From the NCBI GenBank assembly GCA_019638635.1, contig JAHBTM010000009.1, positions 1 through 57,680 of the forward strand: a DNA stretch of 57,680 nt, read 5' to 3'. Source of the DNA: Ferruginibacter sp. GTDB taxonomy: Bacteria > Bacteroidota > Bacteroidia > Chitinophagales > Chitinophagaceae. Positions 12,417 through 48,328 of this stretch are shown here, piece by piece; positions within the stretch are counted from its first letter, which is position 1; each line of letters opens with the position of its first letter. The notes beneath the pieces were generated by a model. The model saw nothing but the letters and a program-made list of their open reading frames with translations. It did no database searches and was not told where the DNA came from. The position numbers and the translations under genes were made by a program.

Positions 12417-12427
12417 GATAGCAATAT

Positions 12428-29181: not shown

Positions 29182-29182
29182 T

Positions 29183-30043
29183 ATGAAAGGGATAATCCTC
29201 GCAGGTGGTTCGGGTACACGGTTGTATCCTATTACGAAAGGCATCAGCAAACAATTGATGCCGATTTATGATAAACCCATGATTTATTATCCGCTCAGTA
29301 CCTTGATGCTGGCGGGCATCCGGGAAATACTCATCATCACTACCCCGGAAGATCAGCAATCTTTTCAACGGTTGCTTGGCGATGGTAGTCAGTGGGGATG
29401 CATTATTCAGTACGCCATACAACATACACCCAACGGACTGGCGCAAGCATTTGTAATTGGAGCTGACTTTATCGGAACCGACAGTGTGGCGCTGGTGTTG
29501 GGAGATAATATTTTCTACGGAAGTGGATTCAGTACTCTGTTACAACAATCTGCCAACCCGCAGGGAGCGGTCATTTTCGCCTATTCCGTGAGTGATCCTG
29601 AACGTTATGGCGTAGTGGAATTTGATAAAAATTTCAACGCCCTGAGCATCGAGGAAAAGCCCCTTCAACCTAAAAGCAATTACGCCGTACCGGGATTATA
29701 TTTTTATGATAACAGTGTGGTGAAAATTGCTGCAGAAATTGCTCCAAGCGCACGCGGCGAATACGAAATAACCGATGTGAACCGTCATTATCTCGAAAAT
29801 AAAAAACTGAAAGTAGGGGTTCTGAACCGCGGATTTGCCTGGCTGGATACCGGCACCTTCGATTCATTGCATGATGCTGGTGAATATGTTCGCGTAATTG
29901 AAAAAAGACAGGGTTTGAAAATTGGTTGTCCGGAAGAAATTGCATGGCGCATGGGCTTCATCACCAAAGAAGATTTAAAAACACAAGCGCAAAACCTGAT
30001 TAAAAGCGGTTACGGCGAATACCTAATGAAGTTAATCAAGTAA
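29183..30043 (+). CDS. rfbA: Glucose-1-phosphate thymidylyltransferase
   Basis: 286 residues. [20 protein letters not shown] at the N-terminus is the nucleotidyltransferase signature with the catalytic Arg and Lys. [29 protein letters not shown] and [20 protein letters not shown] are RmlA hallmarks. It makes dTDP-glucose from glucose-1-phosphate and dTTP and is normally inhibited by downstream dTDP-sugars. Tightly coupled to rfbB. Confidence 0.97.
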
Positions 30044-30062
30044 TACCGGTGTAGCGGATTTT

Positions 30063-31157: not shown

Positions 31158-31245
31158 CCCGTTTTGTTTTTTTACTTTGTTGCCTTAACAGCGTATGTAT
31201 CTTGCCAATGGATAATAAAGGCGTTACCATACATGGGAATAATTG

Positions 31246-32562: not shown

Positions 32563-32577
32563 TCCGTTGGTATAGCG

Positions 32578-33663
32578 ATGCACAAGATGAAACCCAACAT
32601 TGTTCATTTTATTTTCAATCTGGGGCGCGGAGGTGCTGAAACCCTGATTGTACGTGTGGCATCCCGTATGGATGACTATGAACACACCATTGTGACGCTT
32701 TTTGACGTGAATCATTTCAAAAAAGAAACACAAAACATACAATATGTTAGCCTGAACCTGAAGCTCTATCACCTGTTGTTTTTTCCATGGATCGCGTTTC
32801 GATTTAAAAGATTATTGCGCACACTGAAGCCAGATATCGTTCATGCTCACTTATTGTGGCCGGTGGTGATTGCCCGTATGGCGGTTCCAAAAAATATTCC
32901 ACTAGTAACTACCATGCATGGATATATTTCTCAACTGATTGATTACAGAAAATGGTATTTCCGCTGGCTTGATCGTTGGTCGTTTCGATTAAGGCCGTCT
33001 ACTGTACTGGCAGTTTCCCGTGGTGCGCTGGACGAGTATCTCCGGTTCCTCCAACACCCGCCGCAACATCAGGAAGTGCTGTACACTTTTGTAGATACGG
33101 ATGAATTTCAGCCTACAGCTGCACCCTCATCACAGAATCCGTATCGTTTAGTTTCCGTTGGTGCATTACGTTATCAAAAAAATCAATCTTATCTGATAGA
33201 AATGATGAAACATTTCCGGGATAAGCCGGTTGAACTGGATATATATGGGGCCGGTGATTTGCAAGCTGCATTACAACAGCAGATCGCCGAAGCCGGAGTG
33301 GCAGTGCATCTAAAAGGACAGGTACATCCCATCCAGTCAGTACTGCCATCGTATCACGCTATGATCATGCCTTCTTTTTATGAAGGCTTTTCTATCGGAG
33401 TGCTGGAGGCTATGGCTATGAAGATTCCACTGGTGTTGAGTGATATACCGTCGTTCAGGGAACAATGTGGCAACCATGCGCTGTATTTCCAACTGACGGA
33501 TGTTTCCTCCGCGGTGCACGCAGTGGAAGAAATGATACAGCACCCTGCTGAGGCACAACTGCGGGCAGAGGCCGCACGACAACGGGTGCACGAACGCTTT
33601 ACAGCCAATCACCACCTTGAACAACTTCGTCAGATCTATCAAAATGTTCAAAAGACAGGTTAG
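32578..33663 (+). CDS. Glycosyltransferase family 4
   Basis: 361 residues, GT-B fold. IFNLGRGGAETLIVRVASRM at the N-terminus and PSFYEGFSIGVLEAMAMKIP, then LSDIPSFREQCG in the donor domain, give the E-x7-E motif. HAHLLWPVVIARMA and TTMHGY match sugar-phosphate-lipid acceptor transferases. Starts 15 bases after wzx; ATG 32578 or 32587 may initiate. Confidence 0.92.
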   Translation: MHKMKPNIVHFIFNLGRGGAETLIVRVASRMDDYEHTIVTLFDVNHFKKETQNIQYVSLNLKLYHLLFFPWIAFRFKRLLRTLKPDIVHAHLLWPVVIARMAVPKNIPLVTTMHGYISQLIDYRKWYFRWLDRWSFRLRPSTVLAVSRGALDEYLRFLQHPPQHQEVLYTFVDTDEFQPTAAPSSQNPYRLVSVGALRYQKNQSYLIEMMKHFRDKPVELDIYGAGDLQAALQQQIAEAGVAVHLKGQVHPIQSVLPSYHAMIMPSFYEGFSIGVLEAMAMKIPLVLSDIPSFREQCGNHALYFQLTDVSSAVHAVEEMIQHPAEAQLRAEAARQRVHERFTANHHLEQLRQIYQNVQKTG

Positions 33664-33685
33664 CATATTTCCTTAATTTGCACAC

Positions 33686-34411
33686 ATGTCTATGCATTTA
33701 CTCCTCACCGATAATACACTGCTCCTCCATAGGTTTATACAATTGCTGGAAGAACTTCACATCCCTTTAAATACTTTTCATTTTGCTTTTAGTCCGGCCA
33801 ATAAAGAAATGCAGGAAAAGTATGCCGGCAGTACATGGATAAAGCCGTTGTCAGTTAAAAATTCGGTGGATAACCTCATTCAGGATTACATTCTCATTAT
33901 ATCGCTTCATAGCAAACAGATTTTTCCTGCCGCACTGGTGCAAAAGGTACGTTGTGTGAATGTACATCCCGGCCTGAACCCGCACAACCGGGGATGGTTT
34001 CCACAAGTGTTTTCAATTCTCAACCAATTGCCCTGTGGTGCTACTATTCATGAAATGGACGAACAGTTGGATCATGGTCCGATCATCGCGCAGCAACCTG
34101 TTGACATTGAATCCTGGGACACCTCCTTTACTGCCTATCATAAAATTCTGGACGCAGAAATTCAACTCTTGCGGCACAACCTCCGCAACATCCTGAACAA
34201 CGAATACAATACTTTTAAACCGGATGAAGGTAACGTGAATCTCAAAAAAGATTTTGATGCCCTGTGCGAAATTAAACTCGATGCCACCGCCACGTGGCGC
34301 GAACACCTCAACCACCTGCGTGCCCTTACACATGGGAATTATCAGAATGCCTATTTTATGGATGATGCCGGAAACAAGGTGATGGTATCTGTTACATTAA
34401 ATAAAGTTTGA
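33686..34411 (+). CDS. vioF: dTDP-4-amino-4,6-dideoxyglucose formyltransferase, VioF-like
   Basis: 241-residue member of the formyl transferase fold. VNVHPGLNPHNRGWFPQVFS carries the catalytic pair Asn92/His94, and Asp129 lies in EQLDHGPIIAQQ. The aromatic-rich HNRGW segment and short length resemble VioF and related N-formyltransferases of O-antigen clusters rather than methionyl-tRNA formyltransferase (~315 residues). It would formylate the C4 amine of dTDP-Qui4N using N10-formyltetrahydrofolate, giving dTDP-Qui4NFo. Upstream dTDP-sugar genes support this. Confidence 0.87.
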   Translation: MSMHLLLTDNTLLLHRFIQLLEELHIPLNTFHFAFSPANKEMQEKYAGSTWIKPLSVKNSVDNLIQDYILIISLHSKQIFPAALVQKVRCVNVHPGLNPHNRGWFPQVFSILNQLPCGATIHEMDEQLDHGPIIAQQPVDIESWDTSFTAYHKILDAEIQLLRHNLRNILNNEYNTFKPDEGNVNLKKDFDALCEIKLDATATWREHLNHLRALTHGNYQNAYFMDDAGNKVMVSVTLNKV

Positions 34412-35661
34412 TGGCGGCAAACCGTTCCAAACATATCCTATTTCTTTCGTATGACGGACTCACCGATCCACTCGGCCAAAGCCAGATTATACCCTATCTG
34501 AAGGGGCTATGCGGTTATGGTTATACTTTCACTATTCTCAGTTGCGATAAACCCGATTTGTACAAGGCAAACCAATCAACCGTAGAAGAACAATTAAGCG
34601 GAGTGGCCATTGAATGGGTGAGTATTCCTTACCACAAATGGCCTCCGGTACTATCATCGGCGTATGATTTCTTGCAGATGAAACGAACGGCGTACAGGCT
34701 TCACCGTAAGTATCGATTCGATATGGTGCATACACGCCCCGGAGTGCCTACCGTAGTGGCTACGGCGATGCAGAAAAAATTCGGAATTAAATTCCTGAAC
34801 GATGTGAGAGGATTCTGGGCACAGGAAAGAGTGGATGGAGGTATGTGGAACCTGCGAAACTTTGTGTACAGGCAACTCTATACATTTTTCAGAAAACATG
34901 AGTTGCAGTGTTTGCTGAAAGCTGATGCGTTGGTGTGTTTAACCGAAGCAGCGCGACATATTATTATGAGGGAAACTGCCGAACACGGAAAAACCACCAA
35001 CCCCACCGTGATACCGTGCAGTGCCGATACTGACTTCTTCGACCCATCCACCCTAAACACCGGTGCATTGGAAGCCCTGAAGCAGCAGTGCGGAATCAAG
35101 GAAAATGAGTTAGTGATCAGTTATCTCGGCTCAATAGGCGGATGGTACCTCACCGATGAAATGATGCACTTTTGCAGTGAAGTACATGCGGCCATACCAA
35201 CTGCCCGGTTTTTATTTATCTCCCCGCACCGCCATGATCAGATTCTACAAGCAGCTCAAAAACAGGGCATTCCTTCAAATCGGTTGATTACGGTACGTGC
35301 AGAACGCAGCCTGGTGCCGTTATATTTATCCCTCAGCCATTTTAATTTATTTTTTATCCGGCCGTGTTACTCAAAACTGGCTTCATCACCTACTAAACAT
35401 GGTGAAGTGATGTCTATGGGTATTCCGGTTATCACCAATAGCGGAGTAGGAGATTTAGACGATATCATCCAACGCACTCAATCGGGCTGGCTGGTAGAAA
35501 CATTCAGTAAGGATGCTTATGCAGATGTGGTGCGTCGATTGCAAAGCCCTTCACCGTTTAACGCAACAGCTATCCGGCAATCAGCTCTGGAAATATACGG
35601 ACTCCAACATGCCGTACAACGGTACAGAGAGGTGTATCGTACCATACTGGGAGATGAGTAA
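34411..35661 (+). CDS. Glycosyltransferase family 4
   Basis: 416 residues; ATG at 34411 shares one base with the vioF stop (TGATG), so the two are translationally coupled. N-terminus ILFLSYDGLTDPLGQSQI, then TRPGVPTVVATAMQKKFGI and LNDVRGFWAQERVDGG. The donor domain has ISYLGSIGGWYLTDEM and SPTKHGEVMSMGIPVI, where a KxxE-like arrangement replaces the usual E-x7-E. A transferase of the surface glycan; sugar unknown. Confidence 0.88.
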   Translation: MAANRSKHILFLSYDGLTDPLGQSQIIPYLKGLCGYGYTFTILSCDKPDLYKANQSTVEEQLSGVAIEWVSIPYHKWPPVLSSAYDFLQMKRTAYRLHRKYRFDMVHTRPGVPTVVATAMQKKFGIKFLNDVRGFWAQERVDGGMWNLRNFVYRQLYTFFRKHELQCLLKADALVCLTEAARHIIMRETAEHGKTTNPTVIPCSADTDFFDPSTLNTGALEALKQQCGIKENELVISYLGSIGGWYLTDEMMHFCSEVHAAIPTARFLFISPHRHDQILQAAQKQGIPSNRLITVRAERSLVPLYLSLSHFNLFFIRPCYSKLASSPTKHGEVMSMGIPVITNSGVGDLDDIIQRTQSGWLVETFSKDAYADVVRRLQSPSPFNATAIRQSALEIYGLQHAVQRYREVYRTILGDE

Positions 35662-35663
35662 GC

Positions 35664-36566
35664 TTACACTTTTCTGCCAATCGCATGATAGAAAGGAGAA
35701 CGCGGACTCACCTTCACATCTTTTAAACCACAGTTCTCCATCATTTGTATCACCTGTGCTTTGGAGAAACGTTGTTCCAGTTTGGTTCCGAATTTATCTA
35801 AGGCATCATTGCGAATTACAAAAAAGGATTTGTCGTTGTATGCCGCCAAAGGCATTTTTTTAGCCACTTTTCTTAAACCAATCAATACGAGGAAGCGAAC
35901 CCATAACACCAAGGGCATATATATCAGCACCGCCAAAATATCACACACCACGCGCTTCAGTCCCGCCGGTAAACGGCATACCACTTTTCTGATTTGGTCG
36001 CTCAACCAAAACAATGTTTTAAACCACCATCCGCGGGTTTCGAGGTTGTGGTATAGGTAACAATAAAAATGTCCGCCCTTTTTTACCTTACGTACACAAT
36101 CTTTCATGGCCTGTTGGGTATCGGGTATGTGGTGTAACACCCCCACACTCATGGCAAAATCAAATGTTTCATCCTCAAAAGGAATGGTTTCAACACTCGC
36201 CTGAGTGAGGCGTACATTATCAATGTTGCCTAACAGTTTATCTGCCGCAAAAATGGCATGGCTCGGATCGATGGCTTCCATGAAACCCACTTTTTGAGTG
36301 AGGTACTTGGTCCAGCGCCCCGTACCACAACCAATATCGAGCGCATACGTTTGTTTGTTGACGATAGAGTCATCTACTATATCAAAATATTCCTGTGCTA
36401 TGCGATGAATGGTTTCATCTGAAAAATCATGAAACTTCACCCATTCGTCACCGAAAGATTGAACGACCTCTTCGTTTATGTTTTCGCCCTTGGTTGAAAA
36501 GAGTGCAATTTCCCTGTGGGTTCCCTGTACCGTTTTCAGTGGGGGTTGATTATAATCCTTTTTCAT
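35664..36566 (-). CDS. SAM-dependent class I methyltransferase
   Basis: 300 residues from ATG 36566. Motif I ALDIGCGTGRWTKYL, then MEAIDPSHAIF and SVGVLHHIPDTQQAM, are those of a Methyltransf_11 enzyme. The N-terminal ~60 residues with SFGDEWVKFHDFSD occur in sugar-cluster methyltransferases. Residues ~180-240 contain a hydrophobic, positively flanked segment that may dip into the membrane. Convergent with the GT4 gene, two bases apart. Substrate not predictable; a lipid or sugar is likely from context. Confidence 0.86.
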   Translation of the reverse strand: MKKDYNQPPLKTVQGTHREIALFSTKGENINEEVVQSFGDEWVKFHDFSDETIHRIAQEYFDIVDDSIVNKQTYALDIGCGTGRWTKYLTQKVGFMEAIDPSHAIFAADKLLGNIDNVRLTQASVETIPFEDETFDFAMSVGVLHHIPDTQQAMKDCVRKVKKGGHFYCYLYHNLETRGWWFKTLFWLSDQIRKVVCRLPAGLKRVVCDILAVLIYMPLVLWVRFLVLIGLRKVAKKMPLAAYNDKSFFVIRNDALDKFGTKLEQRFSKAQVIQMMENCGLKDVKVSPRSPFYHAIGRKV

Positions 36567-36794
36567 TTTAGCCAGCAAAAATAAGGATTAGGAGTCACAT
36601 CATTGGCATGGGTTTATACGTAAAAAATAAAGCCCACAACGTCTGCAATATTTAAAAATTGTATTTCATTACCGGAAAATATACCCACAGCTCATGCACA
36701 CAAATACCAGATTTATCAACGTATTACAATAATCCGGTGCCGTGTTTCGTTTAATATTCGCTTCATAGACTGCCTTACCCTAAACCATTTCCCT

Positions 36795-37793
36795 ATGGAA
36801 AAAGTTATTGCAGTGGTTGTATCGTACAACCGCGAAGCACTCTTACGCGAATGCGTAGATGCTTTAAGAAACCAGACACGTAAACCGGATGCCATTCTGG
36901 TGGTAAACAACGGAAGTACGGACAACACGCTGAACTGGTTAAAACAACAACCCGATCTTCATTACATCACACAGGAAAACCTGGGAGGCGCCGGTGGATT
37001 CAATACCGGGATTGCTTGGGCATACCGTGCAGGATTTGCATGGATATGGTGTATGGATGATGACGGGTATCCCCAATCCAATGCACTGGAAGAATTACTG
37101 AAACACGAACCGCAACACCGGGCGTTGTTGAATTGTGCGGTCATCAGTAAAGAAGATCAACAAAGTTTTGTATGGAAAACCGCTCACTACAAAAAGCTGC
37201 AGGATGTAACGGAGCCCCTTATAAAAGGTATTGCACACCCTTTTAACGGTACGCTGATTCACCGTGCAATTGTTGAAAGAGTGGGTATGCCCAAAACCGA
37301 TTTATTTCTTTGGGGAGATGAAACCGAATATTACTACCGCATCGTGAAGCAAAATGAATTTCCGGTGTACACCGTGAGTACTAGTGTACACTATCATCCA
37401 CCTTCTGCATTTAGTTATAAGAACGACTGGGATTTCCAATCAGCCTGGAAAATGTACTATTATGTACGAAACAGATTCCATGTACACAGAGCCAAATGCT
37501 CCGGCAGAATCTCTGCTATAATACACTATGCGGCATTTATCGTTGCGTTCTGCGGCATTATATTGGTATATCAGAAAACCGACAAACTCCGGAAATTAAG
37601 TTTTATGGTTTGGCCGGTAAAAGATGCCCTGCAACACAATTTTTCTGCCACACCACCGTTTATACTCCGGAAACTGCACCAACAGGCATCCGTAAGTTTG
37701 ATAACTGTTTGGCAACATAACCTGAAACAACTTTGGCAGGCAGCCCTTGCTCCATTTAACCCGGCAGCAAAAGCAAAGACCGCCAATGCATAA
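36795..37793 (+). CDS. Glycosyltransferase family 2
   Basis: 332 residues, GT-A fold, inverting. VIAVVVSYNREALLRECVDAL opens the domain, then NNGSTDNTLNWL and GAGGFNTGIAWAYRAGFAWIW, with the metal-binding DxD in CMDDDGYP and FLWGDETEYYYR near residue 175. This layout resembles rhamnosyl- and galactofuranosyl-transferases (WbbL/GlfT2-like). The C-terminal ~100 residues are basic with a hydrophobic helix (FIVAFCGIILVY). A strong terminator follows. Confidence 0.92.
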   Translation: MEKVIAVVVSYNREALLRECVDALRNQTRKPDAILVVNNGSTDNTLNWLKQQPDLHYITQENLGGAGGFNTGIAWAYRAGFAWIWCMDDDGYPQSNALEELLKHEPQHRALLNCAVISKEDQQSFVWKTAHYKKLQDVTEPLIKGIAHPFNGTLIHRAIVERVGMPKTDLFLWGDETEYYYRIVKQNEFPVYTVSTSVHYHPPSAFSYKNDWDFQSAWKMYYYVRNRFHVHRAKCSGRISAIIHYAAFIVAFCGIILVYQKTDKLRKLSFMVWPVKDALQHNFSATPPFILRKLHQQASVSLITVWQHNLKQLWQAALAPFNPAAKAKTANA

Positions 37794-37819
37794 ATTTCCC
37801 GCTTACCTCTAAAACCAGC

Positions 37820-37846
37820 AATCCCGGTCTATCCGGGATTTTTTTT
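37820..37846 (+). terminator. Rho-independent terminator of the GT2 gene
   Basis: A perfect 8-bp stem AATCCCGG/CCGGGATT with a five-base loop, then eight T. It overlaps the stop of the convergent membrane protein gene, which ends inside the loop at 37829. Confidence 0.85.
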
Positions 37847-39148
37847 GATCTTTCCGTGAAAATCGAGTATCAGGTACAGAGAGATGACATAAAACGGCAT
37901 GGCCGGAATTTTGTATCGCACCAGTGAACCAAAGTTTAATGTGGTGGCACCCACAAACAAACCGAATATCAGGGCAAATAAAAAGCAATACAATACAATC
38001 GGACTTCGGAAAATGGTAACAAAGAATTTGATGAAGCCCACTTTAAACATAACATACAGCGTAAATATCATCAGCAATAAACTCTCTACCGATGAAAGGA
38101 GGGTTGAAAGTTTTTTGGATTCCCATAAAAACGGACGATAAAAAGTAGCTACGATAGCTGCAGGAGCCATCTTCAAGAGACTTTGCGGCGTTCCATCGAA
38201 TTCAACCCCCAGCGAAAAATTGGAATCCTGTGATTTAATTTGATGAGAATATATTTCCTGATAATTCTGAATAGATTTCGTTAATCCTTCTCCTGCAAAT
38301 TTACCAAGTGCATCTTCAATGTTTTCACTCATACTTAAAAAACCCACGATACTCATCGCAATAAAAAAGAGTACCAGACCTGCCCGCGCAAAACGACTGC
38401 GAATCAATTTTAAATTTTTGAGCAGGAGGAATAATATGAAGAATGGCATGTACGACAACAGGATGTACACTTTCACCAATGCCAGCAACCAGGTGAAAAA
38501 CAACAACATCAACAGGTTTCGGAAGATGTTGTTCTTCGTGTAAAAAATGCTGTGCATCGAATAGGTTACCCATCCCAGTGCGGCAATGCACAATGAATCT
38601 TTTAAAATTCCGGAACTCCAGAATACAAAGGTGGGCAGGAACACAATGGCAATGGCAAATTGTTTATGAAGATATTCATACTGTTCAAAAAAGAACCGAT
38701 ACAATCTCCAGGCACCCGTAAACGCGAACATGGCAAAGAACAGGTTAATGGCCAGAAACTTTCCCATGGTGAAAAAACTGAAGATGGCCACAAAGCGTGC
38801 CACCATGAAGTTGCTTTCATGATCAAAATATCCGGAGTTGCTAATATCAGCCAGTAAGGCCTGATCAAACTGTGCGGCGGGTTGTATGAGTATGGAAAAG
38901 TTTGAAGGGTCATCCAGAATGAGCCGGTAAATATTCACGCCTTCCGGGTAATATAAAAGGGTGGTATCTCCCGGAGATAAATACAACACAAACATGCTGT
39001 ATGCCAGGCTGGCCATCACTTTTATCCAGAAACCCCTGCGATGATATTTTTTCAACACCGGGCGCTTGTATCTTTTTCTTCTGAAAGAAAAAAACAGGTG
39101 GAAGATAAAAACCCAGATAAAAAAAATGATAAAGTCTAAAAAATCCAT
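37829..39148 (-). CDS. Polytopic membrane protein, candidate polysaccharide polymerase (Wzy-like)
   Basis: 439 residues with about ten membrane helices. Signature-like segments are FLPTFVFWSSGILKDSL (about 173-189) and YRPFLWESKKLSTLLSSVESLL, both recurrent in membrane proteins of Bacteroidota glycan loci. A large extracytoplasmic loop (about 280-325) lies between helix groups, as in O-antigen polymerases. Location between GT2 and asnB supports a role in polymerising or ligating the glycan; Wzy families share little sequence, so this is inference from topology. It is transcribed opposite to most of the cluster. Confidence 0.6.
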   Translation of the reverse strand: MDFLDFIIFFIWVFIFHLFFSFRRKRYKRPVLKKYHRRGFWIKVMASLAYSMFVLYLSPGDTTLLYYPEGVNIYRLILDDPSNFSILIQPAAQFDQALLADISNSGYFDHESNFMVARFVAIFSFFTMGKFLAINLFFAMFAFTGAWRLYRFFFEQYEYLHKQFAIAIVFLPTFVFWSSGILKDSLCIAALGWVTYSMHSIFYTKNNIFRNLLMLLFFTWLLALVKVYILLSYMPFFILFLLLKNLKLIRSRFARAGLVLFFIAMSIVGFLSMSENIEDALGKFAGEGLTKSIQNYQEIYSHQIKSQDSNFSLGVEFDGTPQSLLKMAPAAIVATFYRPFLWESKKLSTLLSSVESLLLMIFTLYVMFKVGFIKFFVTIFRSPIVLYCFLFALIFGLFVGATTLNFGSLVRYKIPAMPFYVISLYLILDFHGKIKKNPG

Positions 39149-39251
39149 CAGCAGAATTAATTAATCACCACATTGAGTGCTCAACAAAAATATCCATATT
39201 TATCGTCTAGCATTCAATAATATACAGTTATTTTGTTCAACTCTCTTGCCT

Positions 39252-41093
39252 ATGTGTGGTATCGCCGGAACTATAAATTTGCCCTTGTTGTTCGGAAAGT
39301 TGAAGTCCGTTATGATACACCGTGGCCCCGATGCTCAGGAAACATTCACGGCAGATAATGTGTCTTTCGGCCATTTTCGGTTATCCATTCTTGATATGGA
39401 AGGAGGCGCCCAACCCATGCACTTGGGCAGTGATTTAATCATCATCTTTAACGGACAAATTTACAACCACCTCAGCCTGCGTGAGCAATTTGGTTTGCAG
39501 GGCCACACCCGTTCCGACACCGAAACCCTGTTACTCTTGTATCAGAAATTAGGAGCGGCCATGTTACCGCATCTTGAGGGGATGTTTGCCTTTGCCATTT
39601 TAGATCGCGCTAAACAAACACTTTTTCTCGCACGCGACCGGGCAGGTAAGAAACCATTATATGTTTATCATTACCAAAACCAATTTGCCTTTGCCAGTGA
39701 ACTGAATGGCATTAAAGCCATCTGCCATCCCTGCATCCGCGAAGGATATTTTAACCTCTATACCCGGCTGGGTGTTTTTTACCGAACACTGACTCCCTAC
39801 GAGCATACGGAAGAAATGGAGGCCGGCTCATACTGGATGGTGCATACCAACACCCTTTCTGTTGAAAAAGTAAGATGGTTTAACATACATGATCAATACC
39901 TGAAGCACAACAACGACCCGTTCGATAAAGCATTGCATACGGTGGATACCATGCTGCACGCCGCAGTGAAAAGCAGGTTGTTATCGAGTGATCTGGAAGT
40001 GGGTTGCTTTTTAAGCGGAGGCATTGATAGCGGATTGGTTACCTCTATCGCCAGTGAATACACTTCTTCACTGAAAACATTTACCGTATCCTTTCCAGAT
40101 ACATACGACGAAGCTCCACTCGCCGCACTGGTTGCACAACGCTACGGCACACAACACACCGAACTTACTATATCCTTCGACCACCTCCGGCAGGATATTG
40201 AACACATTATTCTGAATTACGGAGAACCATTTTTCGACAGCTCCGCCATTCCATCGTATTACGTAAGCCGCGAAGCTAAAAAACACCTGACGGTTATTTT
40301 GAATGGCGATGGGGCCGATGAATTGTTTGGAGGCTACCGGCGCTATGTGCCATTCAGTAAGTTTGATTTCTTTAAACAAGGAACTGCATTCAGAGCCCTT
40401 GCACGTGGATTGTTTTCTGTGTTACCTCATCCACATGAAAAAAAATCAAAGTATAATTTCCTGTATCGCCTCGTACAACTGGCCTCCAAAAAAAATGTGG
40501 ATGTGTACTTTGCAGCGGGGCTCGATATCCTTGAAGGATATGAACAACATTTAATTCAACCACACAGTGTCGACCTGGAGATGATTCAACAGGATTTTGA
40601 AAAGATTGCACAATCTAACATGAGCGGTTTGAAAAAAATCATGAACATGGATTTTGATTGTAACCTGTTCAGTGATTTATTAGTGAAAATGGATATTGCC
40701 ACCATGAGCCACTCACTGGAAGGCAGGAGTCCGTTTTTATGTAAAGATTTACTGGAATATGCACCGGGTATGCCGGATGAATATAAAATTAAAGGAACCA
40801 CTACCAAGTATCTGCTCCGTGAACTCGCGAAAAAATATTTACCCGAAACATTGATTCATCAACCTAAACGCGGTTTTGAAATTCCGCTGAAACAGTGGGT
40901 GAACGGCGTGTTGCGGGATATGATTTATGATTATGTGTTATCTCCAAATGCATTGAACCCAACCATACTGAAAAAAGAGTTTACACTACAACTGGTAGAA
41001 GGTAAGGTGAAAATGCCCGCAGAAAAAAGAGCCAAAATTTTATGGATGTTATTTTGCATGGAGGTCTGGTATCAAAAAAAGGATAATGCATGA
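39252..41093 (+). CDS. asnB: Glutamine-dependent asparagine synthase-like amidotransferase
   Basis: 613 residues with ATG 39252 chosen so that the nucleophilic Cys follows Met (MCGIAGTINL). The glutaminase domain includes HRGPDAQE and NGQIYNH. The synthase domain has the PP-loop SGGIDSGLVTSIAS and NGDGADELFGGYRRY. In glycan clusters AsnB-like enzymes often amidate uronic acids or amino-sugar carboxylates rather than making free Asn; which applies here is unknown. The next gene starts within its stop (ATGA). Confidence 0.93.
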   Translation: MCGIAGTINLPLLFGKLKSVMIHRGPDAQETFTADNVSFGHFRLSILDMEGGAQPMHLGSDLIIIFNGQIYNHLSLREQFGLQGHTRSDTETLLLLYQKLGAAMLPHLEGMFAFAILDRAKQTLFLARDRAGKKPLYVYHYQNQFAFASELNGIKAICHPCIREGYFNLYTRLGVFYRTLTPYEHTEEMEAGSYWMVHTNTLSVEKVRWFNIHDQYLKHNNDPFDKALHTVDTMLHAAVKSRLLSSDLEVGCFLSGGIDSGLVTSIASEYTSSLKTFTVSFPDTYDEAPLAALVAQRYGTQHTELTISFDHLRQDIEHIILNYGEPFFDSSAIPSYYVSREAKKHLTVILNGDGADELFGGYRRYVPFSKFDFFKQGTAFRALARGLFSVLPHPHEKKSKYNFLYRLVQLASKKNVDVYFAAGLDILEGYEQHLIQPHSVDLEMIQQDFEKIAQSNMSGLKKIMNMDFDCNLFSDLLVKMDIATMSHSLEGRSPFLCKDLLEYAPGMPDEYKIKGTTTKYLLRELAKKYLPETLIHQPKRGFEIPLKQWVNGVLRDMIYDYVLSPNALNPTILKKEFTLQLVEGKVKMPAEKRAKILWMLFCMEVWYQKKDNA

Positions 41094-42205
41094 AACACAT
41101 TGCCCTGATTGAAAATAACATCCTCGCTACGCATACCATCCGTCAAACGCTTACGCGCAGGTTGATGGATGAAGGATACCGTGTTACCATACTCACCACC
41201 GGTGCACCCGAAAGTCTTGAACTGGCCAGAAAAAATGGTTTTACAGTGGTTGATGTACAAAGCAGCAACCAGAATCCTTTGGATATAGTCCGCTATATTT
41301 CCAACATCCGGAAAGCCTTGAAATCCATTCAGCCCGATGTGTGCTTAACCTTTACTATCCGCCCTGCCATCTGGGGGAATGTTGTAACACGCCAACTGGG
41401 TATTCCCACCATAACCAATATAACCGGTATCGGCCCATTGTTCGATCAACATAACCTGGCCTACCGCACCGCACGCACATTGTATAAATTTATCCTCAAA
41501 AAAACAGCAGTTATTTTTTTTCAGAATACCGACGACCGCCAATTGTTTATCGATAACCGGTTTGTTACTCCTGAAAAAGCACAGCTGATTCCGGGTTCGG
41601 GTATTGATTACCGTTATTATGAACCTATGCCAGAGATTCCGGTGGCACAGCCATTTCGATTTTTATTCATCAGCCGGTTGATTAAAGACAAAGGTGTACT
41701 GGAATATGTGGAAGCCGCACGAAGGTTGAAGGGAAAAATCAATGCACAGTTTCAAATAGTAGGGCCCGTGTGGTTGCAAAATCTGCGCGAAAATATTATT
41801 TCCATGGATGATGTGAAGCAATGGGAAAAGGAAGGAATCATTGAGTATGCCGGCGAACAACAGGATGTACGCCCCTTTATTGCTGCGGCATCTGCCGTGG
41901 TACTGCCTTCCTATCGCGAAGGAACAAGCAATGTACTGCTGGAAGCGTCTGCCATGGAAAAACCTTGTATTACCTGCGATACCACCGGATGCCGGGAAAT
42001 TGTAACAGATGGAGTAACCGGTTTTTTGTGTGAAGTGCGTAATGCGACAGATCTCGCTGATAAAATGGAAAAGCTTTTTCACCTCTCCCCTGAAGAACAA
42101 ACGGCCATGGGTAAACGCGCACGCGAAAAAGTGATAAAAGAATTCGACAAACAGATCGTGGTAGATGCTTATTTGGAAGCTATCCGACAACTTACGGGTG
42201 AATAA
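41090..42205 (+). CDS. Glycosyltransferase family 4, PglA-like
   Basis: 371 residues. Segments LTFTIRPAIWGNV, TITNITGIGPLF and LLFISRLIKDKGVLEYVEAAR resemble PglA, which adds GalNAc to lipid-linked bacillosamine. Donor motif SYREGTSNVLLEASAMEKPCITCD supplies the two glutamates. Four-base overlap with asnB. With the neighbouring PglD-, PglE- and PglC-like genes it would perform the second glycan step; donor sugar unknown. Confidence 0.9.
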   Translation: MKHIALIENNILATHTIRQTLTRRLMDEGYRVTILTTGAPESLELARKNGFTVVDVQSSNQNPLDIVRYISNIRKALKSIQPDVCLTFTIRPAIWGNVVTRQLGIPTITNITGIGPLFDQHNLAYRTARTLYKFILKKTAVIFFQNTDDRQLFIDNRFVTPEKAQLIPGSGIDYRYYEPMPEIPVAQPFRFLFISRLIKDKGVLEYVEAARRLKGKINAQFQIVGPVWLQNLRENIISMDDVKQWEKEGIIEYAGEQQDVRPFIAAASAVVLPSYREGTSNVLLEASAMEKPCITCDTTGCREIVTDGVTGFLCEVRNATDLADKMEKLFHLSPEEQTAMGKRAREKVIKEFDKQIVVDAYLEAIRQLTGE

Positions 42206-42626
42206 TGCATCATCCAACCGGATAATTACAATCGCTTGAATTGTACTAGCAACCCAAATATTGCATTCAGCTCCTCCATTGTGTCAAATTCAATCATTGT
42301 CTTTCATCAACCCCTTATATGCCATTGCTCCTCCTCCCGCTCAACCCATATTAACGCCTCCGGTTAAATACTTCCACATTCAGAATCCATACCTTAAATT
42401 TGCGCAGGAACATTTTTAGTTGATGCCTGTATGGTTAACCGGAATGTTGCTGCAAAAACCTCAATTCATTACCAGAACAGAACAAGCAAATCATGTTGGA
42501 TATGATGGAATCCGTACCAAACTACCCTGTCACCGATTGCGGATGGCGGATTAGCAAGGCATCCGGTAACAATTTACTGTTTCATATAATTGATAGAGGG
42601 TCTATGTCTTCAAAAAAAGTACATTC
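42206..42626. other. 420-bp spacer within the glycan locus, possible promoter
   Basis: No gene is recognised; a 43-codon open frame from 42424 has no family resemblance. An exact -7 box TAAATTTG lies at 42395-42402, but no TTG stands at the expected distance upstream, so a promoter for the PglD-like gene and those after it is only tentative. Confidence 0.4.
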
Positions 42627-43244
42627 ATGATTGTAATCGGATATTCCGGACATGCATACGTAGCCTGTGGCATACTCGGTGCTTCAGGCATTGTGGTGTC
42701 GGGATATTGTGATCATGAAGAAAAAAAATTCAACCCCCTTTCGCTGCCCTATATTGGTTCTGAAAACGATTCAACAGTGCAGGAACAATTGCGTCATGCC
42801 GGGTGTTTTATTGCAGTAGGGGATAACCACATCCGTAAAAAAGTTTACCATACGTTGCAATCAGTAGACATTCAACCGGTGAATGCGGTACACCCCTCCG
42901 CGGTGATTGCACCCCATGTACAAGTGGCCCATGGAAATGTGATGATTGGTGCGGGAGTAATCCTGAACCCATTTTCCGTGATTGAAACCGGAGCCATTTG
43001 TAACACACGGGCGGTGATTGAACATGAATGTACAGTAGGAGCCTTTGCACATATTGGTCCGGGTGCGGTACTTTGCGGCAATGTACATGTGGGCGAAGGG
43101 GCCTTTGTAGGTGCGGCTGCCGTTATCCGGCAAGGTGTTCGCATCGGAGTGAATGCCATGATTGGCATGGGCGCAGTGGTAGTGAAAGATGTAGCAGACG
43201 GAGCCGTTGTGGTAGGCAATCCGTCGAGAAAAATAAATGAATAA
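42627..43244 (+). CDS. Sugar O/N-acyltransferase, PglD/NeuD family
   Basis: 205 residues. The N-terminal Rossmann-like domain (IGYSGHAYVACGIL) is followed by left-handed beta-helix hexapeptide repeats (VHPSAVIAPHVQVAHG through IGPGAVLCGNVHVGEGAFVGAAAVIRQGVRIG) with a C-terminal cap VVGNPSRKI. The PglD/NeuD group acetylates the 4-amine of UDP-bacillosamine precursors or sialic acid hydroxyls. The aminotransferase two genes later supports an amino-sugar N-acetylation role. Confidence 0.9.
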   Translation: MIVIGYSGHAYVACGILGASGIVVSGYCDHEEKKFNPLSLPYIGSENDSTVQEQLRHAGCFIAVGDNHIRKKVYHTLQSVDIQPVNAVHPSAVIAPHVQVAHGNVMIGAGVILNPFSVIETGAICNTRAVIEHECTVGAFAHIGPGAVLCGNVHVGEGAFVGAAAVIRQGVRIGVNAMIGMGAVVVKDVADGAVVVGNPSRKINE

Positions 43245-43261
43245 AAAATAAAAAAATATTT

Positions 43262-44233
43262 ATGAAGGTATTGGTAACCGGTGGAGCAGGATATATTGGT
43301 TCAGTATTGGTACGGAAATTATTGAATGCCGGACATACGGTGCGTGTTATTGACAGTTTAAAATTCGGAGGAGAAGCGTTGTACGATGTAATGATGCATC
43401 CGCAGTTTGAATTTATAAAAGGAGATATCCGCAACGCTGAAGATGTGGCAATCGCACTCACAGGTATGGAAGCCGTAGCACATCTGGCAGCCATTGTGGG
43501 CGATCCTGCCTGTAAAAAATTCAGCGACGAAGCCCGTGATACAAACTGGAATGGCAGTGTTGCATTATTTGAAGCTGCTGATAAAGCGGGTATTAAACGC
43601 TTTGTTTTCGCCAGCACCTGCAGCAATTATGGTAAGATGGCCAACCCCGATTCCTTCGTAACCGAAACATCTGCCCTTAAACCCGTATCGCTGTACGCTG
43701 AACTGAAAGTACAGTTCGAAAATTACCTGCTGAACGAGAGGAAAGATTCCGACATGTGTTCTACCGCCCTGCGCTTTAGTACGGTGTATGGTTTTTCACC
43801 GCGCATCCGATTCGATCTTACCGTGAATGAGTTTACGCGCAATGCTGCCATTCATGGCGAACAGGAAATTTGGGGCGCCCAATTTTGGAGACCATATTGT
43901 CATGTAGATGATCTGGCGCGCTCTGTTGTGCTGGTGCTCGAAAGCGATGAATCAAAAGTGCGTGCCAATGTTTTTAATGTGGGCAGTACCGAAGAAAATT
44001 ATAACAAAGGGATGATCATTGAAGAAGTGTGCAAGGTAGTACCGGATACAAAAGTACATTATGTAGACAGCGCCGAAGATCCTCGAGACTATCGGGTGAA
44101 CTTCGATAAAATAAGAAACGAACTCGGCTACACCATCACCAAAACAGTGCCGGATGGCGTACGCGAGATGTATACTCTCCTGAAAACAGGCATTGTAACA
44201 GACCCATTTGCCGAAAAATTCAGAAACATCTAA
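43262..44233 (+). CDS. NAD-dependent epimerase/dehydratase (extended SDR)
   Basis: 323 residues with VTGGAGYIGSVLVRKLL (Gly-rich NAD loop), HLAAIVGDPAC, FASTCSNYG and YAELK as the catalytic Tyr-x3-Lys. STCS replaces the TDE triad of dehydratases, so it is not a 4,6-dehydratase. Epimerase, reductase or other nucleotide-sugar oxidoreductase is possible. A terminator-like hairpin follows before the next gene. Confidence 0.85.
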   Translation: MKVLVTGGAGYIGSVLVRKLLNAGHTVRVIDSLKFGGEALYDVMMHPQFEFIKGDIRNAEDVAIALTGMEAVAHLAAIVGDPACKKFSDEARDTNWNGSVALFEAADKAGIKRFVFASTCSNYGKMANPDSFVTETSALKPVSLYAELKVQFENYLLNERKDSDMCSTALRFSTVYGFSPRIRFDLTVNEFTRNAAIHGEQEIWGAQFWRPYCHVDDLARSVVLVLESDESKVRANVFNVGSTEENYNKGMIIEEVCKVVPDTKVHYVDSAEDPRDYRVNFDKIRNELGYTITKTVPDGVREMYTLLKTGIVTDPFAEKFRNI

Positions 44234-44244
44234 CGAAATATCGA

Positions 44245-44274
44245 AATCCCCTGCAGCAGTAGGGGATTCTTTTT
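44245..44274 (+). terminator. Terminator-like hairpin inside the operon
   Basis: A perfect 8-bp stem AATCCCCT/AGGGGATT with an 8-base loop, then CTTTTT. It sits 12 bases after the SDR stop and 39 bases before the aminotransferase start, so it may reduce or uncouple expression of the downstream genes. Confidence 0.7.
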
Positions 44275-44312
44275 ATCTTGCAACAGATACCGCAAGGATA
44301 AAAAACGTTTGT

Positions 44313-45443
44313 ATGGTTTTACTGAGTGGCCCGAATATGGGCGGCAACGAATGGAAATACGTAAAGGATTGTTTGGATACCGGCTGGGTGAGCAGTGTGG
44401 GCGCTTATGTAGACCAGTTCGAAAAAATGACCGCCACGTTTGCCGGAACCCGGTTTGCCGTAGCCACCAGCAGCGGAACCACTGCATTGCATATTGCACT
44501 GATACTGGCCGGCGTACAAACCAACGACCTCGTCATTACACAAAACATCACTTTTGTAGCTACCCTCAATTCCATCAGATATACCGGCGCCAATCCGGTG
44601 CTGATAGATACCGAAACAGCAGGCTGGCAAATGGATCTGGACTTACTGGAAAAATTCCTGCAACAGGAAACGGAAATAAAAAACAATACCTGTTACCATA
44701 AAGCCACCGGGAAACGAATCCCCGTAATCATGCCCGTGCATGTATTGGGCAACATCACCGATATGGACCGCCTGTTACAACTGGCCCATCAATTTCATCT
44801 AACGGTTATTGAAGATTCAACCGAGGCCCTTGGGAGTTATTACAAAGGCAAACACGCCGGAAGTATGGGGCTTATGGGCACGTTCAGTTACAACGGTAAC
44901 AAAATTATCACTACCGGTGGCGGAGGGATGATTGTAACGGATGATGAGGCACTCGCCAAAAAAGCCAAGCACCTCACCACGCAGGCTAAAAGCGATCCGT
45001 TCGAATATATGCATGATGAAGTGGGATATAACTACCGATTGGTAAATGTGGCCGCAGCCATGGGCGTGGCTCAAATGGAACAACTGCCCGGTTTTCTAGA
45101 AAAGAAAAAACACATCATTCAATTTTATACATCGGCGTTGCAAGGTGTGGGCGATATTACTTTTCAGGAGGTGCTTCCTACCGTACAACCAAACTGGTGG
45201 ATGCCCACCATCCGAACCCAAAAACAACGTGCAGTGCTCGATGTATTGAATAAGGATCAATTACAGAGCCGTCCGTTTTGGGTGCCGATGAACCGCCTGC
45301 CTATGTTCAAAGAAAATTTGTATTACCACGAAGGTGACCGCTCCGGCGAATTGTACAGTGAGTGCCTGAGCATTCCGTGTTCTACCAACATCACCGATGC
45401 GGATCTGGAACGTGTGGCCAACAAAATAAAATCTGTATTTTAA
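44313..45443 (+). CDS. DegT/DnrJ/EryC1 aminotransferase, PglE/LegC-like
   Basis: 376 residues from ATG 44313; a frame further upstream runs through the hairpin and is not credible. GPNMGGNEWKYVKDC, ATSSGTTALHIALILAGV, IEDSTEALGSYYKGK and FSYNGNKIITTGGGG (Lys197 would bind PLP) closely match the family that aminates C4 of UDP-4-keto-6-deoxy-GlcNAc. The required UDP-GlcNAc 4,6-dehydratase (PglF/LegB type) is not in this window. With the PglD- and PglC-like neighbours it predicts a diacetylated amino sugar. Confidence 0.88.
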   Translation: MVLLSGPNMGGNEWKYVKDCLDTGWVSSVGAYVDQFEKMTATFAGTRFAVATSSGTTALHIALILAGVQTNDLVITQNITFVATLNSIRYTGANPVLIDTETAGWQMDLDLLEKFLQQETEIKNNTCYHKATGKRIPVIMPVHVLGNITDMDRLLQLAHQFHLTVIEDSTEALGSYYKGKHAGSMGLMGTFSYNGNKIITTGGGGMIVTDDEALAKKAKHLTTQAKSDPFEYMHDEVGYNYRLVNVAAAMGVAQMEQLPGFLEKKKHIIQFYTSALQGVGDITFQEVLPTVQPNWWMPTIRTQKQRAVLDVLNKDQLQSRPFWVPMNRLPMFKENLYYHEGDRSGELYSECLSIPCSTNITDADLERVANKIKSVF

Positions 45444-45452
45444 TTTTTGCGG

Positions 45453-46115
45453 ATGTACCCTTTTATCAAGCGTTTACTCGACATCATACTATCTGCAACT
45501 GCTTTGTGTGTTTTAATGCCCCTACTCGTTCCCGTTATATTAATTTTGTTGTTTACGGGTGAACGTGAAGTGTTTTATTTACAGAAACGTATCGGCTATA
45601 AAAATCGCCCTTTTTATATCTGGAAATTCGCCACGATGCTGAAGAACAGTCCGAATATTGGAACAGGCGAAATCACCCTGCGCAACGATCCGAGGGTAAC
45701 GCCGTTCGGCAAGGTGTTGAGACTCACCAAAATCAATGAACTTCCGCAAATTGTCAACGTGTTGAAAGGAGATATGAGTATTGTGGGCCCCAGGCCTTTG
45801 ATGGAAGTGAGTTTTATGCTTTATCCTGAAGACGTGCGCCAACAGATTTATCAGGTGCCTCCCGGCATCACCGGCATCGCATCCCTGGTATTCAGAGACG
45901 AAGAAAAGTTATTGTCAGATGCAAAAGATCCCAAGGCCATGTATCAATCTATTTATCCCTACAAAGCGGCACTGGAGATGTGGTATCAACGTAACAAATC
46001 GTTATCAACCGATATCAAAATCATCTTTCTTACAGCCTGGTTGATTCTCTTTCCGCAAAGTGATATCCTGCGCACCTGCTTTAAAGATTTACCTGCAGCT
46101 CCCCGCAATTCCTGA
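45453..46115 (+). CDS. Initiating sugar-1-phosphate transferase, PglC-like
   Basis: 220 residues from ATG 45453. A hydrophobic re-entrant N-terminal helix (FIKRLLDIILSATALCVLMP) precedes the catalytic domain with VFYLQKRIGYKNRPFYIWKF, NDPRVTPFGKVLRLTKINEL, PQIVNVLKGDMSIVGPRPL and VPPGITGIAS. This is the small single-pass polyprenol-phosphate sugar transferase core. It moves a sugar phosphate from UDP-sugar to undecaprenyl phosphate and so starts the repeat unit. The UDP-amino sugar from the preceding genes is the likely donor. Confidence 0.94.
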   Translation: MYPFIKRLLDIILSATALCVLMPLLVPVILILLFTGEREVFYLQKRIGYKNRPFYIWKFATMLKNSPNIGTGEITLRNDPRVTPFGKVLRLTKINELPQIVNVLKGDMSIVGPRPLMEVSFMLYPEDVRQQIYQVPPGITGIASLVFRDEEKLLSDAKDPKAMYQSIYPYKAALEMWYQRNKSLSTDIKIIFLTAWLILFPQSDILRTCFKDLPAAPRNS

Positions 46116-46161: not shown

Positions 46162-47601
46162 ATGATGCATGACCCCACGCAGGATATACAAACTTTATTT
46201 TCCAGTTATTCGGAGCAAACACTTACTCATATTGATAAACTTCCTCAAAGCGGAAGCAACCGTCAGTACTATCGTTTGTATATTGCCGTTAACAACGCAT
46301 CCGTCCAGAACACATGCATCGCCGCCTGGAGTAATGATACAAAGGAGAATGATGCATTCATCCAATACTCGCGGTTTTTTAAAGCACGTGGCATTCGTGT
46401 ACCGGAAATATTAGCAGTGAGTGGTGATCGGCATTTGTATCTTCAGGAAGATCTCGGGTACACATCTTTGTTAGATGTACTGTTGCAACAGGGGTTCACG
46501 GAAAAAGTGTACAGACTTTATGAACAGGCATTGAGCCAACTGGCCGTTATGCAGGTGGCAGGAAAAGAACTGATACAATCTTCCACACCGGTTTTTGATG
46601 AACAGGCCATCCTGCAGGATGTACTGTATTTTAAATTTTACTTTGCGGATGTACATTCGGTAGCGTATGATAAAGCCATGTTGTTCCAGGAAATACAAAC
46701 ACTTTCTGCTGAAACAGCAGCCATGCTGCCGAGGTATTTCATGTTTCGTGATTTTCAGGCCAGGAATATCATGGTACACAAGGATGAAGTCTATTTTATA
46801 GATTATCAGGGTGCTATGCAGGGCCATCCCACGTATGATGTAGCCTCACTCTTATTTCAGGCTAAAGCTGCGCTTCCGGATACATGGAAAGAAAATTTAT
46901 TCAAGCATTATGTAACTTCTTTTCAACAACAGGCACCCGTGCATAATACAACATTCACACAGGCATACCGTTCCATGGTTTTCATTCGGATGCTGCAAAC
47001 ATTGGGTGCGTACGGCTTTCGCGGGTTGATTGAAAAGAAACCTCATTTTATTTCGAGTATCGCTCCCGCATTGAAGCAGTTGCGCGATATATTGCCTTCT
47101 TACCGGCTCTCACAATATCCTGAACTTCAAAAGGTCTTGCAAACATTAACCGGTGAGGCAGTACGAAATAAATATGCTGTAGTGAAAGCCGAAGAAGATA
47201 CTCCATTGGTGGTGCACATCAACAGTTTTTCCTTTATCAAACGAGGTTACCCTGCCGCCGCATCAGAGAACGGAGGCGGCTATGTGTTTGATTGCAGGGG
47301 AATTCTGAACCCCGGCCGATTGGAAGCATTTAAAACACAAACAGGACGTGATAGCGGAGTGATGCATTTTTTGGAAACCCAAACCCGCATGAATGATTTT
47401 TTGAGGCATGTGTATGAAGTGGTAGACATCACCGTTGAAAATTATATTGAACGTGGATTCGATCACCTCACGGTGAATTTCGGATGCACCGGTGGGCAGC
47501 ATCGAAGCGTGTACGCAGCCGATGCTCTGAGTAAACACCTGCGTGAAAAATACAATGTACCTACCGTGGTAAACCATCTTGAACAATCTTTTAATGCCTG
47601 A
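46162..47601 (+). CDS. AmgK-like sugar kinase fused to a RapZ C-terminal domain
   Basis: 479 residues from ATG 46162; ATG 46165 is possible. Residues ~1-325 are an aminoglycoside-phosphotransferase-fold kinase: GSNRQYYRL (nucleotide loop), LYLQEDLGY, FRDFQARNIM (catalytic Asp197) and FIDYQGAMQGHPTYDVASL (metal Asp214). Residues ~350-475 are the RapZ C-terminal domain with VHINSFSFIKRGYP, FDCRGILNPG and GCTGGQHRSVYAADAL (441-456); the N-terminal P-loop of RapZ is absent. AmgK phosphorylates C1 of MurNAc/GlcNAc; the RapZ domain binds glucosamine-6-phosphate in E. coli. The MurU-like gene follows directly, so a recycled sugar-1-phosphate would pass to it. The sensing role is inference. Confidence 0.88.
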   Translation: MMHDPTQDIQTLFSSYSEQTLTHIDKLPQSGSNRQYYRLYIAVNNASVQNTCIAAWSNDTKENDAFIQYSRFFKARGIRVPEILAVSGDRHLYLQEDLGYTSLLDVLLQQGFTEKVYRLYEQALSQLAVMQVAGKELIQSSTPVFDEQAILQDVLYFKFYFADVHSVAYDKAMLFQEIQTLSAETAAMLPRYFMFRDFQARNIMVHKDEVYFIDYQGAMQGHPTYDVASLLFQAKAALPDTWKENLFKHYVTSFQQQAPVHNTTFTQAYRSMVFIRMLQTLGAYGFRGLIEKKPHFISSIAPALKQLRDILPSYRLSQYPELQKVLQTLTGEAVRNKYAVVKAEEDTPLVVHINSFSFIKRGYPAAASENGGGYVFDCRGILNPGRLEAFKTQTGRDSGVMHFLETQTRMNDFLRHVYEVVDITVENYIERGFDHLTVNFGCTGGQHRSVYAADALSKHLREKYNVPTVVNHLEQSFNA

Positions 47602-47608
47602 TACGCGT

Positions 47609-48328
47609 ATGATTCAAAAGGCGATGATATTTGCAGCCGGACTGGGCACACGTTTTAAACCCTGGACCAACCATCACCCCAAAGCCCTGGCTGTGGTGAA
47701 CGGTAAAACACTATTGCAGCGAAACATTGAGTACTTACAACAGTATGGAATAAACGAAGTTGTGGTGAATGTGCATCATTTTGCCGATCAGGTGTGTGAT
47801 GCCATTGAAAAAAACAATGGATGGGGCAGTGTGGTGCACATCAGCAACGAGCGCGATGCATTACTGGAAACGGGCGGAGGATTATGGCATGCACGGGATA
47901 TGTTACAGGATGCGCCGTTTCTAACGCTGAATGTAGATTTCTTAACCACATTGAACCTGCATCATTTTATTGCGTTTCATGAACAGCAACAAACCATAAT
48001 CTCCCTGGCGGTGGCTGAACGCCCCTCTTCGCGCTGCTTTCTCTTTAATGCACACAATCGTTTATGCGGTTGGAAAAATATGGTTTCAGGTGAAGAGCGC
48101 ATCGCGTATCCGGATGATAACCTGCGCGCTTTATCCTACAGTTGTGTAGCCGCTTTTCAACCCGAAGTGTTTCAACATATACAGCACCGGGGTAAATTTT
48201 CTATCGTAGAAACGTATCTGGATATAGCCTCCCAACATCCTATTTACGGATATAATCATACCGGTGATGATATGGTAGATGTTGGAAAGCCCGAGAGCGT
48301 AGCTTTGGCTGAGGCCTTGTTTAAATAA
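47609..48328 (+). CDS. murU: Sugar-1-phosphate nucleotidyltransferase, MurU-like
   Basis: 239 residues from ATG 47609; ATG 47594, overlapping the preceding stop, is an alternative. IFAAGLGTRFKPWTNHHPKAL is the nucleotidyltransferase signature, followed by LLQRNIEYLQQYGINEVVVN, ETGGGLWHARDML and LNVDFLTT (metal Asp). MurU makes UDP-MurNAc from MurNAc-1-phosphate in the Pseudomonas cell-wall recycling route. The coupled kinase gene just upstream fits this, though the sugar could also be GlcNAc-1-P or another amino sugar. Confidence 0.86.
   Translation: MIQKAMIFAAGLGTRFKPWTNHHPKALAVVNGKTLLQRNIEYLQQYGINEVVVNVHHFADQVCDAIEKNNGWGSVVHISNERDALLETGGGLWHARDMLQDAPFLTLNVDFLTTLNLHHFIAFHEQQQTIISLAVAERPSSRCFLFNAHNRLCGWKNMVSGEERIAYPDDNLRALSYSCVAAFQPEVFQHIQHRGKFSIVETYLDIASQHPIYGYNHTGDDMVDVGKPESVALAEALFK

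Follow-up and report, generated by a model that had tools for sequence, protein, structure and literature searches.

A 57,680-nucleotide stretch of Ferruginibacter sp. (assembly GCA_019638635.1, contig JAHBTM010000009.1, positions 1-57,680; hereafter the window, to which all coordinates below refer) encodes an AmgK-like sugar kinase fused to the C-terminal domain of RapZ (RapZ-C), followed by a gene for a MurU-like nucleotidyltransferase. The two genes make up a conserved variant of AmgK-MurU salvage in which RapZ-C, whose role is putative, is an additional component. Its distribution relative to MurQ provides good evidence for salvage of N-acetylmuramic acid (MurNAc) of the anabolic Pseudomonas type, and the two genes very probably represent the Bacteroidota version of that route. 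RapZ-C is tentatively predicted to be the MurNAc-6-phosphate (MurNAc-6P) phosphatase of the route. Published work is cited throughout from excerpts of the articles.

The fusion gene and its MurU-like partner

The fusion gene (46162-47601, forward strand) is a single open frame of 479 residues, characterised by Pfam, alignment and AlphaFold2 modelling. Its kinase half (approximately residues 1-315; 46162-47106, forward strand) contains the APH domain PF01636 at residues 62-250 (E 4.2e-16, 59.9 bits against a cut-off of 23.2). The NCBIfam models of AmgK, a MurNAc/GlcNAc anomeric kinase, are the top-scoring kinase families for the protein (66 and 57 bits, against 24 for CotS, the APH-like family that follows), with NF045759 aligned to residues 34-308; these scores lie below the AmgK equivalog cut-offs of 550 or 500 bits. 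The catalytic residues D197 and N202 and the metal ligand D214 are invariant in 35/35 aligned sequences, which we selected from the loci collected. The AlphaFold2 model of the whole chain is of high confidence (mean predicted local distance difference test score, pLDDT, 90.8; predicted template modelling score 0.81). Its top Foldseek match in the PDB is 3csv, a putative APH (target-normalised template modelling score, TMt, 0.77), which places the kinase half in the APH fold. The catalytic Asp and Asn, the metal Asp and the fold of an APH enzyme are all present, and the complete APH/AmgK-like kinase with Asp197 and Asp214 that a preliminary description of this DNA had proposed is borne out, as is its placement in one polypeptide. 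This half is AmgK-like and its putative reaction is, in all likelihood, phosphorylation of MurNAc at C1.

The RapZ C-terminal domain (approximately residues 349-473; 47206-47580, forward strand) was located by PF22740 (PapZ_C/RapZ_C), which matches residues 350-473 (E 6.9e-30, 104 bits against a cut-off of 27), by hhalign against E. coli RapZ (probability 99.6, 32% identity) and by Foldseek. Modelled alone, the domain reaches a pLDDT of 93.4 and a TMt of 0.90 to the E. coli RapZ C-terminal domain (5o5s), and the NCBIfam RapZ model scores 95 bits on this part, under its equivalog cut-off. The N-terminal P-loop domain of RapZ (PF03668) was found neither in the fusion protein nor in the genome assembly (2.57 Mb, 97.5% complete). 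The earlier statement that only the C-terminal domain of RapZ is carried, without the P-loop half and with the motif GCTGGQHRSV (residues 441-450), therefore stands. A RapZ remnant kept beside a full RapZ was considered and rejected for the window's genome on the same absence of PF03668.

Seven bp past the stop codon of the fusion begins the MurU-like gene (47609-48328, forward strand; 239 residues), assigned from NCBIfam and PDB matches. The MurU models of NCBIfam score 125 and 115 bits on this protein, in agreement with its earlier labelling as MurU-like, and the next best family scores 66; all are under equivalog cut-offs. The MurU equivalog cut-off of 250 bits, which the partner does not reach, is passed in 0/62 genomes searched. 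The best PDB match is 4y7t (E 8e-21), listed as 'Nucleotidyl transferase', which we take to be Pseudomonas putida MurU, and 8hhd, listed as MurU, follows at E 3e-17. The putative substrate of the partner is most probably MurNAc-1-phosphate.

Occurrence in the Bacteroidota and complementarity with MurQ

A genome_contigs scan returned 414 relatives of the fusion, from which 80 loci were kept. Every one of the 80 is a full-length fusion, at 45-51% identity, and this recurrence, also across families, led us to reject a chance or misassembled fusion. The record titles carry Chitinophagaceae or other Bacteroidota names, except for one metagenome-assembled genome named Streptomyces griseus (L005); its genes cluster with Chitinophagaceae loci and it is probably a mislabelled bin. 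In 68 of the 80 the retrieved DNA includes a MurU homologue, some loci being cut by contig ends, and the other flanks vary by lineage. MurU stands just upstream of the fusion, not downstream, in six loci (L006, L012, L025, L031, L049 and L072), and near it on the opposite strand in three (L016, L052 and L068). Within the genus, all 24 Ferruginibacter genomes match the fusion, its own included, although in three of these the match is broken up over different contigs; outside the genus, the same single-sequence search of 39 near relatives matched 1 of the 15 other genomes of the order.

Two wider samples were searched, one of 247 Bacteroidota genomes (phylum sample) and one of 177 genomes, 149 of them new (class sample). 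The kinase profile occurs in 81 of the 247 phylum genomes and RapZ_C in 27, all within the 81. The RapZ_C matches lie in frames of 478-524 residues in 22 genomes and of 134-149 residues in five. Among 28 holders checked (the 27 with RapZ-C and G047), 22 have their best MurU match on the same strand and no more than 500 bp downstream, the distance being taken between the matches themselves; in the remaining six (G051, G055, G072, G166, G169 and G218) it is on a different contig. Counted within flanks of up to 1.5 kb on either side, MurU accompanies 31 of the 37 RapZ_C loci of both samples. A MurU-like domain was also seen in frames of about 820-890 residues in eight genomes (G043, G052, G061, G065, G077, G125, G166 and G218), apparently as part of a multidomain nucleotidyltransferase.

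RapZ-C is read as a third component of the AmgK-MurU pair, usually fused. In two split lineages (G248 and G050) the kinase is followed by RapZ-C alone (about 135 residues) and then by MurU, with intergenic spacers between them. The fused reading carries one in-frame stop in G133 and G069, whose RapZ-C frames measure 149 and 134 residues, and in G218 the kinase and RapZ-C are found on different contigs. RapZ-C being a separate gene beside the kinase in these lineages, the two need not be covalently joined. The kinase without RapZ-C was found in 54 phylum genomes, namely G047, with MurU next door, and 53 members of family f32, where MurU stands beside the kinase in 5 of 6 checked. AmgK-like kinases without RapZ-C are seen at positions 1498-3209 of L135 (G047) and at L138 and L139 (f32); the two f32 kinases read HRDFHSRN at a position where those linked to RapZ-C mostly read [FYI]RDFQ[ASP]RN, with HRDCQSRN in L103.

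Counting matches at E values up to 1e-40, the etherase MurQ was found in 177 of the 247 phylum genomes, 12 of which hold the kinase; of the 70 genomes without MurQ, 69 hold it, the exception being G094 of family f32. AnmK was found in 172 of the 247, and because 153 of these lack the kinase, AnmK alone was rejected as an explanation of the fusion's distribution. All nine phylum genomes with AnmK but without MurQ hold both kinase and RapZ-C, as do 10 of the 163 with AnmK and MurQ. RapZ-C is present in all 19 genomes that combine kinase and AnmK, and neither AnmK nor MurQ was found in any of the 54 kinase genomes that have no RapZ-C, so that in this sample RapZ-C follows the production of MurNAc-6P. 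In the class sample RapZ-C occurs in 15 of 177 genomes; MurQ is missing from 11, every one of which holds RapZ-C, and all 162 genomes without RapZ-C have MurQ. The 149 new genomes divide into 8 with RapZ-C and no MurQ, 2 with both, none with neither and 139 with MurQ only. Genomes with RapZ-C and without MurQ belong to families f1, f19, f30, f31, f48, f49 and f55 in the phylum sample and additionally to f26, f59, f98 and f105 in the class sample, and this spread makes one single event unlikely.

The window's genome encodes AnmK on another contig (C40, 307 bits). MurQ was not found in it at 1e-40, its best match being of 33 bits inside a frame of 645 residues that we took for GlmS. It therefore has AnmK and lacks a recognised MurQ, as the Pseudomonas-type route has it. 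Of the recycling role proposed in the preliminary description, salvage of MurNAc is supported by the complementarity with MurQ, while a sensor directly tied to the kinase is not, as RapZ-C is separate in some lineages.

Candidate role of the RapZ C-terminal domain

The pocket loop of the domain, C442-T-G-G-Q-H-R448-S449 (47485-47508, forward strand), has the form C-x5-R-S and was delimited from the sequence, the secondary structure of the model and conservation. The motif reads GCTGG[QR]HRS in all 27 phylum-sample loci and GCTGG[QK]HRS in all 10 further loci, so that C-x5-R-S is present in 37/37 RapZ_C loci, and the domain as a whole varies between 40 and 72% identity to the fusion's copy in 33 relatives. 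D377, R379 and H472 are likewise invariant in the 35 aligned sequences. In two models a strand ends at C442, a loop spans 443-447 and a helix starts at R448. In crystals, the E. coli pocket was occupied by malonate or sulfate, contacted by the T248 and G249 backbone and by side chains of three residues, H190, H252 and R253 (PMC5737377). Four of these five residues (T248, G249, H252 and R253), together with C247, are kept in the fusion. The amino-sugar-phosphate type of pocket expected earlier is thus largely retained, and the RapZ-like ligand residues, whose absence would have spoken against a RapZ-type role, are present apart from H190. The H190 position falls in N383-P384-G385-R386 (47308-47319, forward strand; hhalign alignment and conservation), where Gly is found in 27/27 phylum-sample loci, followed by R or K in 26 and Q in one. 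Binding of glucosamine-6-phosphate (GlcN6P) therefore cannot be assumed, which leaves the "sensor" as originally stated unsupported and argues for another ligand. As a guess, the adjacent R386 may contact the lactyl carboxylate of MurNAc, with the Gly making room for it.

Pseudomonas lacks MurQ; its MurNAc-6P is made by AnmK and carried on to UDP-MurNAc by MupP, AmgK and MurU (PMC5371407). A salvage route of this type needs a MurNAc-6P phosphatase. The MupP model was run against 36 genomes, of which 28 hold the kinase and 8 do not, and against 14 control genomes, Caulobacter included; its cut-off was reached in none of the 36 and none of the 14. The window's genome has no MupP-like match at 1e-10, a weak test given that the model misses its cut-off even in the controls. 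The same holds for 6 of the 9 holders with AnmK and without MurQ, the window's genome included, the other three scoring 50, 64 and 101 bits. The discoverers of MupP pointed out that the phosphatase of this step might come from any family (PMC5371407).

Considered together, the invariant C-x5-R-S loop and the unassigned MurNAc-6P step make a predicted enzyme no less fitting than a sensor. In the pathway that we propose, AnmK would convert anhydro-MurNAc to MurNAc-6P and RapZ-C would remove the 6-phosphate through its cysteine-centred C-x5-R loop (C442 and R448), doing the job of MupP. The AmgK-like half would then phosphorylate the anomeric position to give MurNAc-1-phosphate, from which the MurU-like partner would form UDP-MurNAc. 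The fusion would keep phosphatase and kinase together, the sugar being handed from one to the other. We infer the phosphatase activity of RapZ-C with moderate strength, and such channelling only weakly. The chemistry finds some precedent in E. coli RapZ, where C247S and C247A abolish activity and where the density in a crystal of the C-terminal domain with GlcN6P was that of a probable "chemically transformed product" (PMC9841335). Khan and Goerke compared the RapZ pocket to the loop found in cysteine-dependent phosphatases and suggested GlcN6P hydrolysis (PMC7199280); the likeness of the loop to phosphatases is therefore not claimed here as novel. It is possible, though we hold it quite tentatively, that RapZ-C domains form a cysteine-centred family of amino-sugar-6-phosphate phosphatases, with the Bacteroidota members acting on MurNAc-6P and E. 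coli RapZ being an RNA regulator derived from an ancient sugar phosphatase.

Several observations weigh against a phosphatase. Foldseek found no known phosphatase fold for RapZ-C, the nearest structures being RapZ itself and then weak matches to PFK and others; the sole cysteine phosphatase among the best 50 of 249 fold matches is DUSP18 (E 2.7, query-normalised score 0.26), and no general acid residue was identified in the domain. The pocket and C247 mutants of E. coli RapZ also lost binding of small RNAs (PMC9841335), so that the inactivity of these mutants is not necessarily a sign of catalysis, and no report of RapZ phosphatase activity was found in the excerpts consulted from the open PMC subset. 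AnmK was not recognised in 8 of the 27 phylum and 5 of the 15 class RapZ-C holders (G268 being in both), so that the source of substrate for a MurNAc-6P phosphatase there is not obvious, and of the 19 phylum RapZ-C holders with AnmK, 10 have MurQ as well. The counts include related, hence not independent, genomes, and the Fisher values calculated for both samples take no account of this; apart from G047, the genomes with kinase only all come from family f32. Regarding MupP, 3 of the 8 non-holders likewise have no match at 1e-10, and the model fails in Caulobacter, for which a MupP homologue is listed (PMC13046382); a divergent HAD phosphatase may therefore be present in these genomes.

RapZ-C could instead be, as in the preliminary description, an allosteric sensor that tunes the kinase to need by binding an amino-sugar phosphate, GlcN6P or a different one; where split off, it would act as a regulatory subunit. 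The E. coli C-terminal domain binds GlcN6P with a dissociation constant of 10 nM by surface plasmon resonance, and full-length RapZ does not respond to glucosamine or glucose-6-phosphate (PMC7073468). The four conserved pocket residues with C247, and the persistence of RapZ-C beside the kinase in G248 and G050, would suit such a role, as would its presence where AnmK was not found and a phosphatase would have less to do. However, the position whose alteration in H190A inactivates E. coli RapZ (PMC9841335) is uniformly Gly here, RapZ-C and kinase lie on different contigs in G218, and a need-sensor does not predict that the 54 kinase genomes without RapZ-C should all be without AnmK; it also leaves the MurNAc-6P step unassigned. 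A regulatory subunit would also account for both fused and split forms. We keep the phosphatase as the likeliest reading, though of somewhat uncertain standing, and regard the sensor as its main rival, a serious, if rather doubtful, possibility. An RNA-binding regulator like E. coli RapZ is thought unlikely; the E. coli protein ends in RHRTLEKRKP, and no such basic tail is seen in the window protein, by inspection only.

Two further explanations appear less probable. The kinase and nucleotidyltransferase might act on another sugar, for instance one connected with the polysaccharide genes that lie upstream of the fusion in the window, the MurQ pattern then reflecting shared ancestry. Both proteins do fall below their NCBIfam equivalog cut-offs (66 of 550 and 125 of 250 bits), but those upstream genes are not kept beside the fusion across the 80 loci, and many families, and the second sample too, show the same one-way complementarity with MurQ; we therefore consider this unlikely. 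RapZ-C could also serve, within the same salvage pathway, as a dimerisation or scaffold part that joins kinase and MurU, its pocket being a relic. The E. coli C-terminal domain alone forms homodimers (PMC7073468) and MurU is adjacent in 22 of the 28 holders checked. A loop that stays invariant in 37/37 loci while the domain around it varies is not relic-like, however, and this reading seems very improbable.

Genomic surroundings and relation to known systems

A long run of polysaccharide genes (26894-46115) ends directly upstream of the fusion, the part at 39177-46115 being assigned from family matches and the rest by eye. In a domain scan, ten neighbouring genes fall into polysaccharide, efflux, TonB and similar ordinary families. 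Further away, a metH-like gene, named by eye, is split on the reverse strand (9699-13437) into an N-terminal frame of 206 residues and one of 905; the gap is readable in another frame, indicating a frameshift either in the organism or in the assembly.

If the proposed pathway is true, it would explain the reuse of muramic acid in Bacteroidota without MurQ and would mean that a second protein family, unrelated to the first, provides the missing enzyme. The system also offers a natural test of a published question, whether the cysteine pocket of RapZ, on which amino-sugar control in E. coli hinges, functions as a phosphatase (PMC7199280), and the stand-alone RapZ-C forms of about 135 residues are small proteins well suited to it. 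No paper treating both RapZ and AmgK was found in the open PMC literature, and as far as that search shows, the union of RapZ-C with the AmgK-MurU pair and with a pathway lacking MurQ is new.

Among the known systems, the AnmK-MupP-AmgK-MurU route of Pseudomonas is the closest, sharing the presence of AnmK, the absence of MurQ and the position of amgK next to murU (PMC5371407). It differs in that the window's genome has no match to the MupP model at 1e-10 and that the kinase here carries RapZ-C. MupP, whose reaction is the one proposed for RapZ-C, is a HAD-type enzyme (PMC5371407), whereas RapZ-C is a different domain, PF22740. In Caulobacter the kinase and the uridylyltransferase have neighbouring locus tags and MurQ is lacking, as here, but a MupP homologue is listed there (PMC13046382). 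Within the Bacteroidota, an AmgK-MurU route has been proposed for Tannerella forsythia beside MurK/MurQ; AmgK, but not RapZ, is named in that work (PMC7670621). Finally, the C-terminal domain of E. coli RapZ has the same fold and the same C-x5-R-S pocket loop as the domain described here, which differs from it in lacking the P-loop N-domain and, by inspection, the basic tail, in having Gly for H190 and Arg for W191, and in being fused to a kinase.

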